Positions 1,592 through 49,089 of a DNA stretch of 64,000 nucleotides are shown here, piece after piece. Position 1 is the stretch's first letter; every line of letters starts with the position of its first letter. This DNA comes from Acidobacteriota bacterium (GTDB lineage Bacteria > Acidobacteriota > Thermoanaerobaculia > Multivoradales > Multivoraceae), in NCBI GenBank assembly GCA_003388555.1, contig QQVD01000042.1:1-64000 (forward strand), given 5' to 3'. A model generated the notes under the pieces. The model did not search any database. It saw nothing but the letters and a program-made list of their open reading frames with translations, and had not been told where the DNA came from. The position numbers were made by a program, and so were the translations under genes.

Positions 1592-4324
1592 CTACGGGTA
1601 GTAGCCGCGTAGGGTCCGCGCGGTTCCGCCCCCTTCGACCTTCACCTCGATGCTGCGGAACTCGTCGGAGTCGCTGGTGTTGGAGGACTGGTAGGCGAGT
1701 AGGTACTTGGAACGCAGCTCCTCGGCGATCGAGGCGTAGACCGCGGTGAGGCCGGAGACGTCGTCGAGGAAGAAGCTCTGTCCGCCGGTCTCGGCGGCCA
1801 GACGCTCGAGCACCGTCTTCGGCTTCTCCTGCCGCTTCTCGCCGCGCGCCGGCTTCGGCGCCTTGTCGGGCAGATCGATGCCGACCGCGTAGATCGCCGC
1901 CTCGGAACGCTGGGCGTACTCCAGGGCCTGTTCGTAGTCGTAGCGGCTGTGCTCGTCGATGCCGTCGGAGAGCAGCAGTACGAAGCGCTGGCCGGGGAGG
2001 CCGTTGAGGTGGAAGAGGGCGAAGATCAGCGAGTCGTAGAGAGACGTGCCGCGCTCGGCGCGCAGTCCGAGCAGCCCGGAGGCGAAGTCGCTGCGCTGGT
2101 CGGTGAAGTTGGCGGCGACGTGCGGGCGGTCGTTGAAGGCGATCAACGACAGCTCGTCGCGCTCGGTGACCACGTCCTCGAAGAACTGGGCGGCGGCCTG
2201 GATGGCCTGGTCGATGCGGTCCTCCATCGACGCCGAGACGTCGAGCAGGATGGTGCCGCGCAGCGGCGTGTCCTCGACGCGGCGGAAGCGCGCGATCGTC
2301 TGCTGCACGCCGTCTTCGAGGACGGTGAAGGCGCTCTCCTCGAGGCCCAGCACCGGCCGACGCTGGTCGTCGGTGACGCTGGTGTAGAGCTCGACGAAGT
2401 CGACCTGCACCTCCTCGAGAGCGCCGGGGCCGTTGATCAGCACGGTGTCCTCGATCCATTCGCCGTCCTCGAGGTTGGCCTGCACCCTCACCACGGTGAG
2501 CTGCTGTGGCCCGCCGGGGAGCTCGATCGGCTGCACCCACGGCTCCTGGTAGAGGGTCGCTACCTTCTCCTCGTTGCGGAAGAACTCGAGCGAGCGCAGC
2601 GACTTGCCCTCTGGAACCACGAGATCGGCGCGCGCCCGGACGCTCTCGGCGTAGGTGCGGCCGGGGATCGGATCGATCAGCCGCACCGAGAAACGGTAGG
2701 GAGAGCCGTTGACCAGATAGGCGTCACTGGCGATCTCGTTGCCCTCGGCGTCCATCGCGATGGCGCGCAGCATCTGCGAGCGCGGCAGGCTTCCCAGATC
2801 GAGGTCGACGCTGAACGGGGCGCGGTTCTTCCTCAGCAGCGCCTTGCCGCCGAGCAGGAACTGCACCGCGTCGATCGGCCCGGTGACCGCGGTCTCGAAG
2901 CGCAGGTAGCCGCTGACCAGATCGTCGGGTGGCGCCAGGATCCGGATCGAGGGCTCACCCTCCTCGAGGCGGAAGTTGGCCTCCTCGAAAAGCTCGGTCA
3001 ACGGGTCGGGAATGGTGGGGTCGTATCCCGATTCGATCGCCGGGACGTCGATCGGCACCTGCTCGCGCCAGGCGGCTTCGCCGTGCAGGTCGTCGATCCG
3101 CAGCACCAGCTCGTAGCGGCCCGGGCGCAGGTAGCGCTGGGCGACGAGGGGCGCCGGTGGCGCGGCCGGCGCAGCCCCCTCGGTCGGTCCAGCGCCCTCA
3201 CCCTCACCCTCGCCGACGCCGAGCTGGTCGGGCGGCATCTCGAAGCGGTAGCGGAAGGTCTCGAACAGGCGGTTCTCTCCCTCCTCGTCGGGCCTGAGCA
3301 CCTCGCCGATCAGCTCGAAGGCGTAGGCGTCGTGCTCGAGGGCACGACCGAGGCTGGCGGTGGCGACGTCGACGGCGACGACCATCTGCACGATGGTGCG
3401 GCTCTCGCGACGCCCCGGGTAGGAGATCGCGACGTCCGCCTCGAGGCGCGGCGCTCCGTCGGGGATGTCGGTGGAGTAGGAGGTGAAGGTCTGCACCCAC
3501 TCCTTGGAGGACGGCGGGATGGGCTCGAGCCGCTCGCGCAGCATCTGTTCGTAGAGGAAGCCGAGGGCGCCGCCCTGACGGTTGATCAGGTTGATGACGC
3601 CGACCGCCAGCTCGAGCTCCATCTCCTTGCAGCCGCCGCTGAGACCGCTGCCGGCGCTGGTCATGCCGAGATTCGAGAGCTCCTCGCCGGGGCGCCAGGC
3701 GACCCACGGCCCACGGCCCCAGCGGCGGTGGAAGATCACCGCGAACTGACCGCGCCGGAGGCGACCGCGGCTGACCGTCTCGACCACCTCGGCGAGGTTC
3801 GAGAAGCCGTAGAACCAGGCCTCGATCTGGGTGCTGCTGCGGGGCGGGCAGATCGACACCTGGATCGGCGCCGGCCCGTTGAGCAGGTAGTAGCGGGCGC
3901 GCTCCTCGTCGGGGCCGTCGAAGAGCTGGTAGACCTCGGCCAGCCGCGACTCCCACTGCTCCTTGAACTCGTTGCGCGCGGTGTCGGGGAAGCGGTCGCG
4001 TACCTTCCAGAACTGCTCGATGAAGGCGTCGCGCTGGTAGTCCTTCTCGAGGCAGAGGAAGGTGGCGATCTCGGCGTCGCTGATCAGCAGGTCGACCTCT
4101 TCGATCCACTCGCGGTACTCGGCCGCCAGGCCGTCGTAGCGGTCGGCGCATTCGCCCCACTGCTTCGGCTTCTTCTTCTTGCGCGGTTCCCCCTCCTGTG
4201 AGCCGGCCGTGGCGGGCAGGGCGATCAGCGCGGCGAGGAGGGTTCCCAGCAGGGCCGGGAACAGGCGGCTCGGGTGCGAGGCGCGTGGGAGTGGTCGGTG
4301 CGCCGGAGTGCGGTCGGGGTGCAT
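1592..4324 (-). CDS. GWxTD and von Willebrand factor A domain secreted protein
   Basis: A 910-residue exported protein. ATG 4324 places a signal peptide (LFPALLGTLLAALIALPATAGS) near the N-terminus; a longer frame upstream lacks such a feature. After a lysine-rich stretch comes a GWxTD-type region (WIEEVDLLISDAE ... FWKVRDRFPDTARNEFKEQW), typical of Acidobacteriota and Bacteroidota periplasmic proteins. Beta-rich Ig-like modules fill the middle. The C-terminal ~280 residues form a VWA domain with the MIDAS motif DVSASM, the conserved Thr in GTSLYD and the Asp in LLLSDGIDE. The order GWxTD then VWA recurs in Acidobacteriota. Its role is unknown; MIDAS proteins usually bind protein ligands through Mg. 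It stands alone, convergent with the phosphoesterase. Confidence 0.85.
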   Translation of the reverse strand: MHPDRTPAHRPLPRASHPSRLFPALLGTLLAALIALPATAGSQEGEPRKKKKPKQWGECADRYDGLAAEYREWIEEVDLLISDAEIATFLCLEKDYQRDAFIEQFWKVRDRFPDTARNEFKEQWESRLAEVYQLFDGPDEERARYYLLNGPAPIQVSICPPRSSTQIEAWFYGFSNLAEVVETVSRGRLRRGQFAVIFHRRWGRGPWVAWRPGEELSNLGMTSAGSGLSGGCKEMELELAVGVINLINRQGGALGFLYEQMLRERLEPIPPSSKEWVQTFTSYSTDIPDGAPRLEADVAISYPGRRESRTIVQMVVAVDVATASLGRALEHDAYAFELIGEVLRPDEEGENRLFETFRYRFEMPPDQLGVGEGEGEGAGPTEGAAPAAPPAPLVAQRYLRPGRYELVLRIDDLHGEAAWREQVPIDVPAIESGYDPTIPDPLTELFEEANFRLEEGEPSIRILAPPDDLVSGYLRFETAVTGPIDAVQFLLGGKALLRKNRAPFSVDLDLGSLPRSQMLRAIAMDAEGNEIASDAYLVNGSPYRFSVRLIDPIPGRTYAESVRARADLVVPEGKSLRSLEFFRNEEKVATLYQEPWVQPIELPGGPQQLTVVRVQANLEDGEWIEDTVLINGPGALEEVQVDFVELYTSVTDDQRRPVLGLEESAFTVLEDGVQQTIARFRRVEDTPLRGTILLDVSASMEDRIDQAIQAAAQFFEDVVTERDELSLIAFNDRPHVAANFTDQRSDFASGLLGLRAERGTSLYDSLIFALFHLNGLPGQRFVLLLSDGIDEHSRYDYEQALEYAQRSEAAIYAVGIDLPDKAPKPARGEKRQEKPKTVLERLAAETGGQSFFLDDVSGLTAVYASIAEELRSKYLLAYQSSNTSDSDEFRSIEVKVEGGGTARTLRGYYP

Positions 4325-15023: not shown

Positions 15024-15682
15024 AGAACCGTCACGCTTTCTGCGCGGGGCGGCTCGGCCTCCCCCTGCTCTGTGCGCTGCTCCTGGCCGGTTGTTTCACC
15101 TACACGCCGCGCGTCGACACCATGGCCGATCGCCTCGAGCGCGACCTTCCCGGCGCGTCGCTGGAGCGGGGGCACGGGGCCAAGCTCGGTCGCCTCTCCC
15201 TCGGGCTGGCGCGGGCGGTGGCCGGCGCCGCGATCGACGACGACGAGGATCCGGAGGCTGCCGCGGGCCTGCGCATCGCGCGCGGGATCAAGCGGGTCGA
15301 GTTCCGCCAGTTCACCATCGACGGCGCGGTTTCGGAGGAGTGGTCCCCGAGCCGCCTCGAGCGCCGGCTGGAGAGCCGCGGCTGGGACACCGTCGCCAGG
15401 GTGGTCGGCGACGAGTCACTGGCGTGGGTGCTGGTCCGCTTCGACGATCGCCACGTACGCAGCGCCATCGTCCTGGCCCTCGACGGCGAAGAGCTGGCGC
15501 TGCTGCGGCTCTCGGGACGGCTCGATCGGGTGATCGCCGAGGCGATCCGCTTCGCCCGTTCCGAGGTGCACGAGGACGACTGGCACGACGAGTGGGAGGA
15601 AGCACCGGATGCCGAGGAGTGGGACGAGATCGAGTCGAGCGGCACGGTGGCGGAAGCCTCCGGTGCCACGACTGTCTTCTGA
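15020..15682 (+). CDS. Lipoprotein with a DUF4252-like fold
   Basis: A 220-residue protein starting at an ATGA overlap with the previous gene. It has a lipoprotein signal with lipobox LLAGC at residues 21-25, so it is probably anchored in the membrane. The middle (VEFRQFTIDGAVSEEWSPSRL ... VLVRFDDRHVRSAIVLALDGEELALLRLSGRLDRVI) parallels the previous DUF4252 protein, suggesting a duplicated pair. The C-terminal tail is very acidic (DDWHDEWEEAPDAEEWDE). It is the last gene of the sigma-factor operon; its stop codon lies within the first unit of a tandem repeat. Confidence 0.7.
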   Translation: MKNRHAFCAGRLGLPLLCALLLAGCFTYTPRVDTMADRLERDLPGASLERGHGAKLGRLSLGLARAVAGAAIDDDEDPEAAAGLRIARGIKRVEFRQFTIDGAVSEEWSPSRLERRLESRGWDTVARVVGDESLAWVLVRFDDRHVRSAIVLALDGEELALLRLSGRLDRVIAEAIRFARSEVHEDDWHDEWEEAPDAEEWDEIESSGTVAEASGATTVF

Positions 15683-15746
15683 CCTGAACTTCTGACGCCA
15701 CTTCTGACCTGACTTCTGACCCACTTCTGACCCACTTCTGACCCAC
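15675..15746. repeat. Tandem TTCTGAC array
   Basis: Six copies of TTCTGAC, spaced irregularly then regularly by ACCCAC or CTGAC. The reverse complement GTCAGAA shares a CAGAA core with the arrays at 5381 and 49051. The first copy contains the TGA stop of the preceding lipoprotein gene. Confidence 0.8.
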
Positions 15747-29884: not shown

Positions 29885-31087
29885 CTAGGCCGTGGCGCGG
29901 GAGGCGACGGCGGCAGACGACCGCACACCCCGGTCGGTGAGCCTCTCGAGCAGTTTGCCGAGCTGCTCGAGCGAGTGCAGGTCGTGAACCGGCAGGAAGT
30001 CGTCGACGTGCGGCAGGGCCGCCTGCATGCCGCGGGTGAGGGGCTCGTACGTCGGCGAGCCGAGCAGCGGGTTGAGCCACACCAGCCGATGGCTGAGACG
30101 GTGGAGCAGCGCGATCTCGCGCCCCAGCAGGTCGATGTCGCCGCGGTCCCAGCCGTCGGAGATGAGCAGCACCACGGCGCCGCCGGAGAGCACCCGCCGC
30201 GCCCACTCGCGGTTGAAGGTGTGCAGCGCCTCGCCGGTACGGGTGCCGCCGCCCCAGTCCTCGACCCGGCGCGTCGCCGCCCGCAGGGCATCGTCGACGT
30301 TGCTGCCGCGCAGCTCCGCAGTCAGCCGGGTCAGGCGAGTGCCGAAGGCGAACGCCTCGACCCGCGCCTGCGAACGGCGCAGGAAACGACTGTGGCTGAT
30401 CGCGTACACGAACTCGAGCAGCAGACGCGAGTAGGCCTCCATCGACCCCGAGACGTCGCACAGCAGCACCAGTGGCCGGCGCCTGCGCTTGCGCCTGCGG
30501 CGCTTCAGCTCGATGAGCTCGCCACCGTGCGCCAGGTTGCGGCGCAGGCTGCGCCGCAGGTCGAGGACCTCGCCGCGGCGGGCGGCGGTGAGGCGGCGCG
30601 AGCGCCTCGTCTCGAGATCCCAGCGCATGCGCCGCATCATCCGCCGTACCTGCTCGAGCTCCTCGGCGTCGAGCTCGGCGAAGTCCTTGTGACGCAACTG
30701 CTCGCGGTCGCTCCAGGCCGCCACGCGCTGCTCGTCCTGATCGTCGCGGGAATCCTGGCCGGGCGGCGGCGTGCTCGCCTGCAGCCCCGTCAGGGCCGCC
30801 TGCCGCCGGCGCTCCACCTGCCGCTGCACCAGCAGCCCCAGCTCGAGACCCTCCAGCTCGCGCGGGTCACGCGCCTGCCAGAACAGCTCGAAGGCGGCGT
30901 CGAACCAGTCGAGGTCCTCGCGCCGGCTCACCAGCAGCGCACTCGCCGCGCTCTTCACCTGCTGCTTGCTGCGCAGGTCGACGTGGGTCAGCGCCCGCAG
31001 CCAGTCGGAGAGCTGGTCCGGTCCCGCGTCGAGCCCGCCGACGCGGAGCAGGCGGGCGAAGAGGACTGCGTTCTGGAGGAGGGACAA
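29885..31087 (-). CDS. CoxE-like VWA domain protein
   Basis: A 400-residue protein of the VWA/CoxE family. The N-terminal region (VLFARLLRVGGLDAGPDQLSDWL ... FELFWQARDP) and the RRMMRRMRWDLETRRSRR stretch are typical. The VWA domain has MIDAS motif LLCDVSGSMEAYS, the GGGTRTG threonine and LLISDGWDRGD. CoxE works with the MoxR-type ATPase CoxD in maturing the active site of CO dehydrogenase and related molybdenum enzymes. The only visible start is TTG 31087; no ribosome-binding site precedes it because the inverted repeat of an inserted element begins five bases upstream. The insertion may have replaced the original 5' end. Confidence 0.85.
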   Translation of the reverse strand: MSLLQNAVLFARLLRVGGLDAGPDQLSDWLRALTHVDLRSKQQVKSAASALLVSRREDLDWFDAAFELFWQARDPRELEGLELGLLVQRQVERRRQAALTGLQASTPPPGQDSRDDQDEQRVAAWSDREQLRHKDFAELDAEELEQVRRMMRRMRWDLETRRSRRLTAARRGEVLDLRRSLRRNLAHGGELIELKRRRRKRRRRPLVLLCDVSGSMEAYSRLLLEFVYAISHSRFLRRSQARVEAFAFGTRLTRLTAELRGSNVDDALRAATRRVEDWGGGTRTGEALHTFNREWARRVLSGGAVVLLISDGWDRGDIDLLGREIALLHRLSHRLVWLNPLLGSPTYEPLTRGMQAALPHVDDFLPVHDLHSLEQLGKLLERLTDRGVRSSAAVASRATA

Positions 31088-31091
31088 GGGA

Positions 31092-31126
31092 GGGGTTGGG
31101 GGTCAGGGGTTAGGGGTTAGGGGATC
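31092..31126 (+). repeat. Left terminal inverted repeat, G-rich heptamers
   Basis: Units GGGGTTG, GGGGTCA, GGGGTTA, GGGGTTA, GGGGATC. Five G4 runs with three-base spacers give a strong G-quadruplex pattern on the plus strand. Confidence 0.85.
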
Positions 31127-31271
31127 GGGACCAGGGAGCAGGGACTGGGGACTGAGAAGAACAGAGAGCTGAACGGCGTCAGGGATGGAGGTCGCGCGGC
31201 GTACTAGAGAGAAAGTCGCGAGAGGTCACGCGACTCTCGAAGTGCTGGCGGGCAGGGCGAGGGAGGGCGCG

Positions 31272-31649
31272 ATGAAAGTCAGCAGCTTCAGGGACCTCGA
31301 TGTGTGGAACAGAAGTATCGATCTCCTCCCCAAGGTCTACCAGCTACTCCGGCAGCTGCCCGTCGAGGAGAGGTTCGCCCTCGCTGATCAGATCCGTCGA
31401 GCCTGCGTTTCGATCCCGGCGAACATCGCTGAAGGGCATGCTCGCCAGCATCGCAAGGAGTACGTGCAGAGTCTCTTCGTCGCCAAGGGCAGCCTGGCCG
31501 AGCTGCAGACGCTCCTCGTAGCGGGAAGGAAGCTCGACTACTTTTCTTCGGCCGACACTCGCGAGGTCGAGCTCGAAATGGAAGAGATCGCCAAGATGCT
31601 CAATGGGCTCGTTCGATCTCTGCGTCGCAGGATCTCGAGAGGTTCTTGA
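31272..31649 (+). CDS. Four-helix-bundle protein of the S23/23S rRNA intervening-sequence family
   Basis: A 125-residue helical protein. The N-terminal FRDLDVWNRSIDL, the IPANIAEGHARQHRKEY motif (about 53-69) and the LAELQTLL...KLDY segment are characteristic of S23/IVP four-helix bundles. Some relatives lie within intervening sequences of 23S rRNA genes, and the fold also occurs in the Avd protein of diversity-generating retroelements. No 23S rRNA or reverse transcriptase is next to it here. Basic residues suggest nucleic-acid binding. ATG 31272 follows GGGAGGG. Codon use is less GC-biased than the neighbours (AGA, AGG, AAA, ATC, TTT), which fits transfer. It is the only gene in a putative inverted-repeat element. 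Confidence 0.9.
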   Translation: MKVSSFRDLDVWNRSIDLLPKVYQLLRQLPVEERFALADQIRRACVSIPANIAEGHARQHRKEYVQSLFVAKGSLAELQTLLVAGRKLDYFSSADTREVELEMEEIAKMLNGLVRSLRRRISRGS

Positions 31650-31682
31650 TCCCCTGACCCCTAACCCCTGACCCCTAACCCC
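31648..31682 (-). repeat. Right terminal inverted repeat, G-rich heptamers
   Basis: Read on the minus strand: GGGGTTA, GGGGTCA, GGGGTTA, GGGGTCA, GGGGATC. It matches the left end at 33 of 35 positions and contains the TAG stop of the CoxD-like gene. Confidence 0.85.
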
Positions 31683-32595
31683 CCGCGCCAGCGGCGCGGC
31701 TGCGCTGAATCAGCCGCCGCGCCGCTTCCGAATCGATCCGCTCCAGATCGTCCTGGTACTTGAGCAGCACGCCCAGGGTGCGTTCGAGGATCTCGTCGCT
31801 GAGGGTCTCCTGGTCGAGGGCGAGGAGGGCCTGCAGCCAGTCGATGGTCTCGGCGACGCCGGGGCGCTTGAACAGCTCCTCGCTCCGCAGCTCCTGCACC
31901 AGGGCGACGGCCTCGCGGGCGAGTGTCTCGGGCGCCTCCGGCACGCGGCGCAGCACGATCTCGACCTCCTTGTCGAAGCTGGGGAAGTCGAGCCAGTGGT
32001 AGAGGCAGCGGCGCTTCAGGGCGTCGTGCACCTCGCGGGTGCGGTTCGAGGTCAGCACCACCACCGGGGGGGTCTCGGCCCGGATCGGCCCGATCTCGGG
32101 GATGGTGACCTGGTAGTCGGCGAGGATCTCGAGCAGGAAGGCCTCGAACTCCTCGTCGGCGCGGTCGATCTCGTCGATCAGGAGCACCGCTCGGCCGCCG
32201 GTTTCCGCCGGGTCGATCGCGCGCAGCAGCGGCCGCGCGATCAGGAACTCGCGCCGGAACAGATCGTCGACCGAGGCACCGTCGCCCGAGGCTCGCAAGC
32301 TGAGCAACTGACGGCCGTAGTTCCACTCGTACAGGGCCTGGGCGACGTCGAGGCCCTCGTAGCACTGCAGCCGGACCAGCGGCACCTCGAGCAGCTGCGC
32401 CAGGGCGCGCGCCACCTCGGTCTTGCCGACGCCGGGCTCGCCTTCGAGGAAGAGGGGTTTGCCGAGTCGACGCGACAGGAAGATCGCGGTGGCAAGCGCC
32501 GGGTCGGCGACGTACTGCTGGGTGCGCAGCAGCTCGCTGACGTCGGGGACTGCGCCGAACGGCTGCTGGAAGTCGAGGCTGGTCGTGGCGCTCAT
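31675..32595 (-). CDS. MoxR-family AAA+ ATPase (CoxD-like)
   Basis: A 306-residue AAA+ protein with Walker A EGEPGVGKTE, Walker B VLLIDEIDRADEEFEA, sensor 1 VLTSNRTREVHDALKRRCLYHW and a C-terminal helical lid. The insertion RLQCYEGLDVAQALYEWNY and overall length match MoxR proteins of the CoxD type, which act with a VWA partner in metal-enzyme maturation. The start is ATG 32595. Its last codons and TAG stop run into the inverted repeat of the inserted element, so its native stop and the link to the CoxE-like gene were probably altered by insertion. Confidence 0.9.
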   Translation of the reverse strand: MSATTSLDFQQPFGAVPDVSELLRTQQYVADPALATAIFLSRRLGKPLFLEGEPGVGKTEVARALAQLLEVPLVRLQCYEGLDVAQALYEWNYGRQLLSLRASGDGASVDDLFRREFLIARPLLRAIDPAETGGRAVLLIDEIDRADEEFEAFLLEILADYQVTIPEIGPIRAETPPVVVLTSNRTREVHDALKRRCLYHWLDFPSFDKEVEIVLRRVPEAPETLAREAVALVQELRSEELFKRPGVAETIDWLQALLALDQETLSDEILERTLGVLLKYQDDLERIDSEAARRLIQRSRAAGAGG

Positions 32596-32614: not shown

Positions 32615-32639
32615 AGGGGTCAGGGGTCAGGGGTCAGGG
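32615..32639 (+). repeat. Third GGGGTCA heptamer tract, upstream of the MoxR gene
   Basis: Three GGGGTCA units followed by GGG, about 20 bases before the CoxD-like start. It is the same heptamer type as the element ends and in the orientation of the left end. It could be a solo end or an unrelated expansion. Confidence 0.75.
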
Positions 32640-48662: not shown

Positions 48663-49052
48663 GTCAACCTCCGGCCCTGTCCCCCTTAAGGGGAGGCTGG
48701 GTGGGGGTGCCTCAGCCAGGGAGCTCGTCGCATCTCGCGGCGTTGCCGTTTCACGCAAAGCGTGGATCGGGTCCGGGATGACAGCTGGGAGCGTCACCCT
48801 CCGGCTCCTCCCCCTGCAGGGGGAGCCTGGGTGGGGGTGCCTCAGCCACGGAGCTCGTCACACCGCTCAGCATCTTCGCTTCACGCAAAGCGTGGATCGG
48901 GGTCCGGGATGACAGCCGGGAGAGTCACCCTCCGGCTCCTCCCCCTTCAGGGGGAGGCTGGGTGGGGGTGTCTCAGACAGCGAGCTCGTCGCACCGCCCG
49001 GCGTCATCGCTTCACACAAAGCGTGGAACCGTGGATCAAGTCCGGGATGACA
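48663..49052 (-). repeat. Three tandem copies of a ~130-bp repeat
   Basis: Copies begin at 48663, 48793 and 48924 with GTCAMCCTCCGG (M = A or C). Each has the hairpin CCCCCTKMAGGGGGAG type, GCTGGGTGGGGGTG, GAGCTCGTC, CGTTTCACGCAAAGCGTGGA or a variant, and ends in GTCCGGGATGACAG. The period is 130-131 bases. The same unit occurs in reverse at 37579-37710 and in part at 37515. There are no unique spacers, so this is not a CRISPR array. The hairpin at each unit may terminate transcription. Confidence 0.85.
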
Positions 49053-49089
49053 GAAGGCAGAAGGCAGAGGCAGAAGGCAGAAGAGACAG
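49051..49089. repeat. Tandem CAGAAGG/GCAGAAG microrepeat
   Basis: Four to five copies of a 7-9-base unit around CAGAAGG directly follow the GATGACAG end of the last 130-bp repeat copy. The CAGAA core is shared with arrays at 5381 and 15675. Confidence 0.75.

Follow-up and report, generated by a model that had tools for sequence, protein, structure and literature searches.

Among the closest described counterparts of the locus analysed here are the intervening sequences of 23S rRNA. In Coxiella burnetii, this insert of approximately 430 nt consists, like the present unit, of an S23 gene and complementary terminal repeats, which in Coxiella form a 28-bp stem, and tandem heptamers (GACAGAT) lie beside the S23 frame (PMC4990558). 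Intervening sequences reside within rRNA genes, and RNase III excises them from the rRNA. They have long been suspected to be mobile; a 1993 proposal, cited in PMC4990558, attributed this mobility to the S23 frame. Dispersed, intergenic and G-rich heptamer arrays like those of the genome studied here were reported in Xanthomonas and Nostoc, and two genomes of Xanthomonas contained 70-75 pairs in convergent, inverted arrangement; that paper draws no link from the arrays to S23 genes or mobile elements (Rehm 2015, PMC4692102). In REPIN-RAYT systems (PMC3116915), a single- or few-copy gene is flanked by repeats, and many inverted pairs without the gene are dispersed in the genome; the RAYT is a Y1 transposase and the REPs are palindromes. 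MITEs are short and show inverted ends and target duplication without a transposase. Finally, the Avd proteins of diversity-generating retroelements form a four-helix-bundle family related to S23 (bAvd, PF22296). Among open-access papers, we found none in which S23 genes located outside rRNA were connected to heptamer arms.

The window, which means the whole stretch of 64,000 nt of acidobacterial DNA that was analysed, contains an S23 gene between two inverted arms inside a coxD/coxE pair (Table 1). This observation, first made in a preliminary description from the letters alone, was confirmed. The arms are 35 nt long, inverted and 94% (33/35) complementary, and the left one consists of heptamers with a GGGGATC cap, both as originally described. 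The G-run array was found to run inward beyond the 35-nt left arm, to approximately position 31148, giving nine G-runs. Terminal inverted repeats such as characterise MITEs and insertion sequences are present. The S23 gene was the sole gene between the arms and no transposase was detected within the unit.

Table 1. Coordinates of the S23 unit, its neighbouring genes and a nearby array in the window.
Feature	Position	Strand	Remarks
CoxE-like VWA gene	29885..31087	-	VWA_CoxE PF05762, E 1.1e-65; TTG 31085-31087, 4 nt beyond left arm
Left arm	31092..31126	+	Heptamers GGGGTTG GGGGTCA GGGGTTA GGGGTTA, cap GGGGATC; 33/35 complementary to right arm
Inner extension of left array	31127..31148	+	Altered units GGGACCA GGGAGCA GGGACTG GGG; nine-G-run array
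S23/IVP four-helix-bundle gene, 125 aa	31272..31649	+	ATG 31272; TGA 31647-31649 overlaps right arm
Right arm	31648..31682	-	Inverted copy of left arm; C-rich on + strand; holds coxD stop
CoxD/MadB-like AAA ATPase gene	31675..32595	-	Last codons and TAG stop (31675-31677) supplied by right arm
Unpaired (AGGGGTC)n array	32615..32639	+	Just upstream of coxD; one of many S23-less arrays

The S23 protein scored 119.8 bits against PF05635 (23S_rRNA_IVP; curated cut-off 33.8; E 7.7e-35) and 116.5 bits against TIGR02436 (four helix bundle; curated cut-off 24), and it also matched bAvd (PF22296) just above the cut-off. No catalytic domain was found in the protein by family searches. Its solved relatives are 2GSC and 2RLD, and the closest one is XCC0516 (2GSC, E 2e-22), which is a toroidal homopentamer (PMC4990558). 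A second in-frame ATG is located at 31185 and would give a protein of 154 aa; the family homology begins near 31272, and the GGGAGGG directly 5' of the ATG at 31272 could be a ribosome-binding site. The gene opposes its neighbours, its codon use is less GC-biased than theirs (GC3 of 0.74 vs 0.94 for coxE and 0.93 for coxD), the coxD stop falls within the right end and the coxE TTG lies just beyond the left end; in all of these points the preliminary description held. For each strand, pairing of the arms into one long stem was predicted, with z of -4.3 and -5.3. Since the unit lies outside rRNA, between protein-coding genes, whereas intervening sequences lie within rRNA genes, it is by definition not one of them.

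The coxD-coxE junction was compared with that of relatives. Among relatives from the same family and order as the window, it measures 13-109 nt and lacks S23 in 18 loci, which supports the earlier claim that the S23 gene was inserted into the pair. Nine genomes of genus g2 (L043, L045-L047, L050-L052, L054 and L057) carry another insert of approximately 1.1 kb between coxD and coxE, in which S23 is absent. The native start of coxE was probably displaced, because the coxE frames of relatives start further upstream. At the focal copy, no target duplication was visible and no empty site was found in a close relative; protein identity to the closest relatives that have the locus is only approximately 70%, so the ends of the insertion are unreadable. 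From the junctions without S23 in these relatives, we infer that the focal copy moved into the coxD-coxE junction.

The arm heptamer is common in this genome. The pattern GGGGTYAGGGGTYA gave 300 matches (181 forward and 119 reverse) against 3 for the reversed-pattern control, and the window holds 11 heptamer matches at ≤2 mismatches vs 1.15 expected. Because both arms are arrays of this common heptamer, the 33/35 match alone is not strong evidence; other arrays of the genome fit the left arm no worse than the right arm does. A search of the genome for further copies of the arms thus returned many arrays, some of them paired, but no S23 gene other than the focal one, and since a single S23 gene stands beside many arrays, most arrays may predate or be independent of it. 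In a partial sample of 40 array clusters, 19 array pairs less than 1 kb apart ran from G-rich to C-rich, none ran in the reversed order and 4 were on the same strand, and no recognisable S23 was found in the spacers of the other pairs. Four spacers between arrays share a core of approximately 150 bp that is 86-95% identical while their outer flanks are unrelated, a pattern as expected of a small dispersing unit; no similarity between this core and the S23 unit was detected. Arrays were also observed within approximately 250 bp of the ends of contigs C4, C24, C27, C49, C52 and C74; as the assembly breaks at heptamer arrays, the array counts are probably low. Two other repeats were seen in the window. 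At 15672-15746, there is a tandem array of period 11/22 (unit ACTTCTGACCC), which on its opposite strand resembles arm repeats of the CAGRAGT type but has a longer period, and at 48663-49083 a 131-bp tandem repeat of 2.8 copies is followed by (CAGAAGG)n at 49051-49083.

Hundreds of S23-less arrays in this genome, together with the G-rich heptamer arrays known in Xanthomonas and Nostoc (PMC4692102), would agree with the arrays being ordinary G-rich simple-sequence repeats, of a G-quadruplex type regulatory nature or produced by slippage, with the S23 gene lying between two of them by chance. The flanks of S23 genes in general bear on this explanation. One genome per species was surveyed, which yielded 80 S23 loci from many phyla, 77 of them with enough flank, and the 250 bp upstream was compared with the 250 bp downstream as inverted repeats at a score of at least 14. 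Matching inverted arms were found at 59 of the 77 loci, which are partly non-independent (six Rhizobiales loci have one common arm type), against only 2 of 231 pseudo-gene placements set at equal spacing elsewhere in these loci; when arms were swapped between loci, approximately 9% matched. The remaining loci (18/77) fell below the threshold. The upstream arm was richer in G than in C in all 59 cases, and the best arm period was 7 or 14 in 55. The repeats themselves differ widely between loci (GGGGTTA, AGGTGTC, TAGCGAA, TAGGCAR, AGGATTC, TTTAGCG and others). The flanking frequency and the fixed polarity speak against simple repeats; so do the many arms whose units (TAGCGAA, AGTTGTT and CAGRAGT) do not supply the G-runs that a quadruplex requires, and the clean empty sites described below for the arms plus the gene. 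This explanation was already disfavoured, the flanking association persisted in the gene-centred survey, and we now regard chance placement among simple repeats as very improbable.

In a second set, nearly all of the same class, arms were present at 32 of 33 S23 loci, the repeats measuring 7 or 8 nt, and a single genome (G076) contained five different arm repeats. Two loci (L022 and L023, in G064 and G054, respectively) have octamer arms (GGGGCTTA), and G-run arrays there were enriched at spacing 8, not 7. Across 99 related genomes, the number of G-run matches at spacing 7 minus that at spacing 8 had a median of 94 in genomes with a strong S23 vs 4 in the rest (Mann-Whitney p 1.8e-9, with kinship ignored). 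The possibility raised at the outset, that the repeats are widespread and unlinked to S23-type genes, was therefore borne out in its first half, the heptamers being widespread and mostly without S23, but not in its second, as they are strongly linked to S23 across genomes. Arm similarity also tracks S23 protein similarity (Mantel rho 0.205, approximately 4 sd above permutations), for which shared descent is a possible reason. The S23 genes in units show a dN/dS of 0.10-0.15, namely purifying selection; being conserved by selection inside the units, the protein therefore matters. No conserved 23S motif was found in the scanned S23 loci, no S23 was found in phages, and viral contigs gave one weak partial match. 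A separate observation was made on a Pseudanabaena galeata plasmid (L220, approximately 3010-3369), where S23 lies between cas6 and cas4 and the arms are long (AAAAGCT)n and (AAAAGCC)n arrays that are direct rather than inverted. As far as genome sequences go, the survey showed that the arrangement of inverted heptamer arrays around S23 genes is general.

Occupied and empty sites were compared in other bacteria. In Trichormus variabilis, a 423-bp S23 unit bounded by an exact 5-bp target duplication (GTAAT) occupies a site that is empty in Aulosira, Tolypothrix and others, with flanks 97-98% identical. One homologous gene cluster occurs on plasmids of Nostoc ATCC 53789, C052, C057 and N6 and carries S23 units at different junctions; the plasmids of ATCC 53789 present reciprocal occupied and empty junctions. 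The unit at the A-B junction of this cluster has TTCTA duplicated at its bounds, and a different unit, whose arms are made of GGGAAAA, occupies the B-C junction; CAGRAGT and GGGAAAA arms were both found in one Nostoc strain. Furthermore, an S23 unit stood against an empty site at the nrdB/nrdA junction in a Calothrix comparison, another was found at the cas10/cmr3 junction in comparison with PCC 7002, and two further junctions had an S23-unit insertion. At most other junctions, 11-16 nt were unaligned and a duplication was unreadable, so that the 5-bp duplication could be read in two comparisons only. Over their whole length, arms included, the S23 units of three Nostocales are approximately 80% identical, and their flanks are unrelated. 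Inserts bounded by arms but lacking S23 also occur, and two of them interrupt S23 genes. These alignments showed that S23 units of cyanobacterial plasmids have been inserted into junctions that are otherwise intact; in two cases, 5 bp of the target were duplicated.

Three candidate comparisons were rejected as empty sites. The Calothrix brevissima plasmid pair shares 3.6 kb and is thus not informative about the unit ends. In Anabaena 90 vs Dolichospermum, the junction sequences between cas6 and cas4 have been replaced, leaving no clean boundary. The comparison among G088, G094 and G099 is not a simple empty site, as the homologous flanks reach only as far as the arms and the right one runs in the opposite direction; the alignment of L210 (G099) with L013 (G088), in which this was seen, suggests an inversion with its breakpoint at the unit.

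The preliminary description had presented the locus as a putative mobile element. Insertions of S23 plus arms at empty sites elsewhere support this for the kind of unit, but not a recent movement of the focal copy. We consider it very likely that an S23 gene between inverted tandem arrays, approximately 420-600 bp in all, constitutes a mobile unit of a widespread class. Empty sites and target duplications in relatives distinguish these units from intervening sequences. Because the gene, the terminal stem and, in Coxiella, the tandem heptamers are the same, the rRNA intervening sequences are probably S23 units that landed in rRNA genes.

How such a unit would move can be explained in more than one way. 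Inverted ends and 5-bp target duplications fit a MITE-like unit moved in trans by an unrelated transposase, and the lack of a catalytic domain of S23 in family searches would agree with the protein being a passenger or a regulator that stabilises or silences the unit. However, a sequence-specific transposase should not tolerate wholly different arms within one genome, such as those of G076 and of the Nostoc strain mentioned above, and a passenger is at odds with the near-universal association with S23 and with its conservation by selection. Unlike MITEs, S23 units carry a conserved and selected gene and their ends have no fixed sequence. On this evidence, movement by an unrelated transposase appears rather unlikely.

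The explanation that we prefer, and consider likely overall, is a mobile unit of S23 plus arms in which S23 acts on the folded arms and a host enzyme does the cutting. The unit would comprise an S23/IVP gene between inverted arrays of a 7-nt, sometimes 8-nt, repeat, with the 5' arm G-rich. In the present genome, it would have been inserted at the coxD-coxE junction, where it now ends coxD and abuts the coxE start. Its transcript or a single DNA strand would fold on the arms into a long stem, to which an S23 pentamer would bind by structure and 7-nt period, not by a fixed sequence. Units of a single genome can have totally different arms that nevertheless share orientation, period and polarity; it is therefore more plausible that folded shape and period are recognised than a fixed sequence. 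A host-encoded nuclease or recombinase would then make a staggered cut (5-nt stagger) and join the ends. Pairs of arrays without S23 would be mobilised in trans as satellites, in the way proposed for REPINs and their RAYTs. The part assigned to S23 in this scheme, acting on the folded arms, is put forward tentatively.

Two other routes involve enzymes known from the related systems. The weak relation of the S23 family to Avd proteins of diversity-generating retroelements, together with the stem-forming RNA predicted here, could point to movement through an RNA intermediate, for which a reverse transcriptase would act in trans and S23 would play an accessory part comparable to that of Avd. This route is improbable, as no reverse transcriptase (PF00078) was found in this genome, nor in a genome with 25 S23 matches (G087), although an enzyme may have been present in the past. 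The arrays could also be REPs moved by RAYT/Y1 transposases, to which S23 would be incidental; Y1_Tnp genes were present in 14 of the 15 S23-bearing genomes examined, including three weak ones in this genome. These three (L238, G000:C21:98500-111000) lie approximately 4 kb apart and possibly belong to one repeated unit. The sampled Y1 genes have ordinary palindromes at their flanks, in which a 7-nt period is missing, and heptamer arms are absent from all three Y1 genes of this genome. Moreover, two units show a 5-bp duplication, and IS200/IS605-type transposition is not known to make a target duplication. We therefore give movement by RAYT/Y1 transposases hardly any credence. Because this genome has no reverse transcriptase and the Y1 genes of these genomes have non-heptameric palindromes of their own, a host cutting enzyme working with an S23 complex is favoured.

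In organisation, REPIN-RAYT is the nearest analogy to the S23 units. In REPIN-RAYT a Y1 gene adjoins the repeats, whereas the Y1 genes here have other flanking repeats; S23 units also differ in having no known catalytic domain, variable tandem-heptamer ends and an observed 5-bp target duplication. Going one step further, S23 may be the mobility factor of a distinct, transposase-free class of bacterial mobile element with ends recognised by their shape, an inverted hairpin of 7-nt period, and not by sequence. This class would have given rise to the intervening sequences of rRNA as well as to the heptamer arrays dispersed in many genomes, although we hold this with reserve.

The role of S23 and the spread of rRNA intervening sequences have been standing questions since the early 1990s, and Rehm et al. 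left the convergent heptamer pairs unexplained (PMC4692102). An S23 gene, a terminal stem and tandem heptamers were already known in combination from the rRNA intervening sequences of Coxiella. The present analysis joins S23 genes and heptamer arrays as parts of one dispersing unit in many phyla, which suggests that small mobile DNA of this kind is widespread and has largely been overlooked. Given the empty sites and the two 5-bp duplications, the question becomes testable with a marked unit. Such a unit would also account for many of the genes annotated as 'four helix bundle protein' that lie between operon genes, for instance between nrdB and nrdA or among cas genes.
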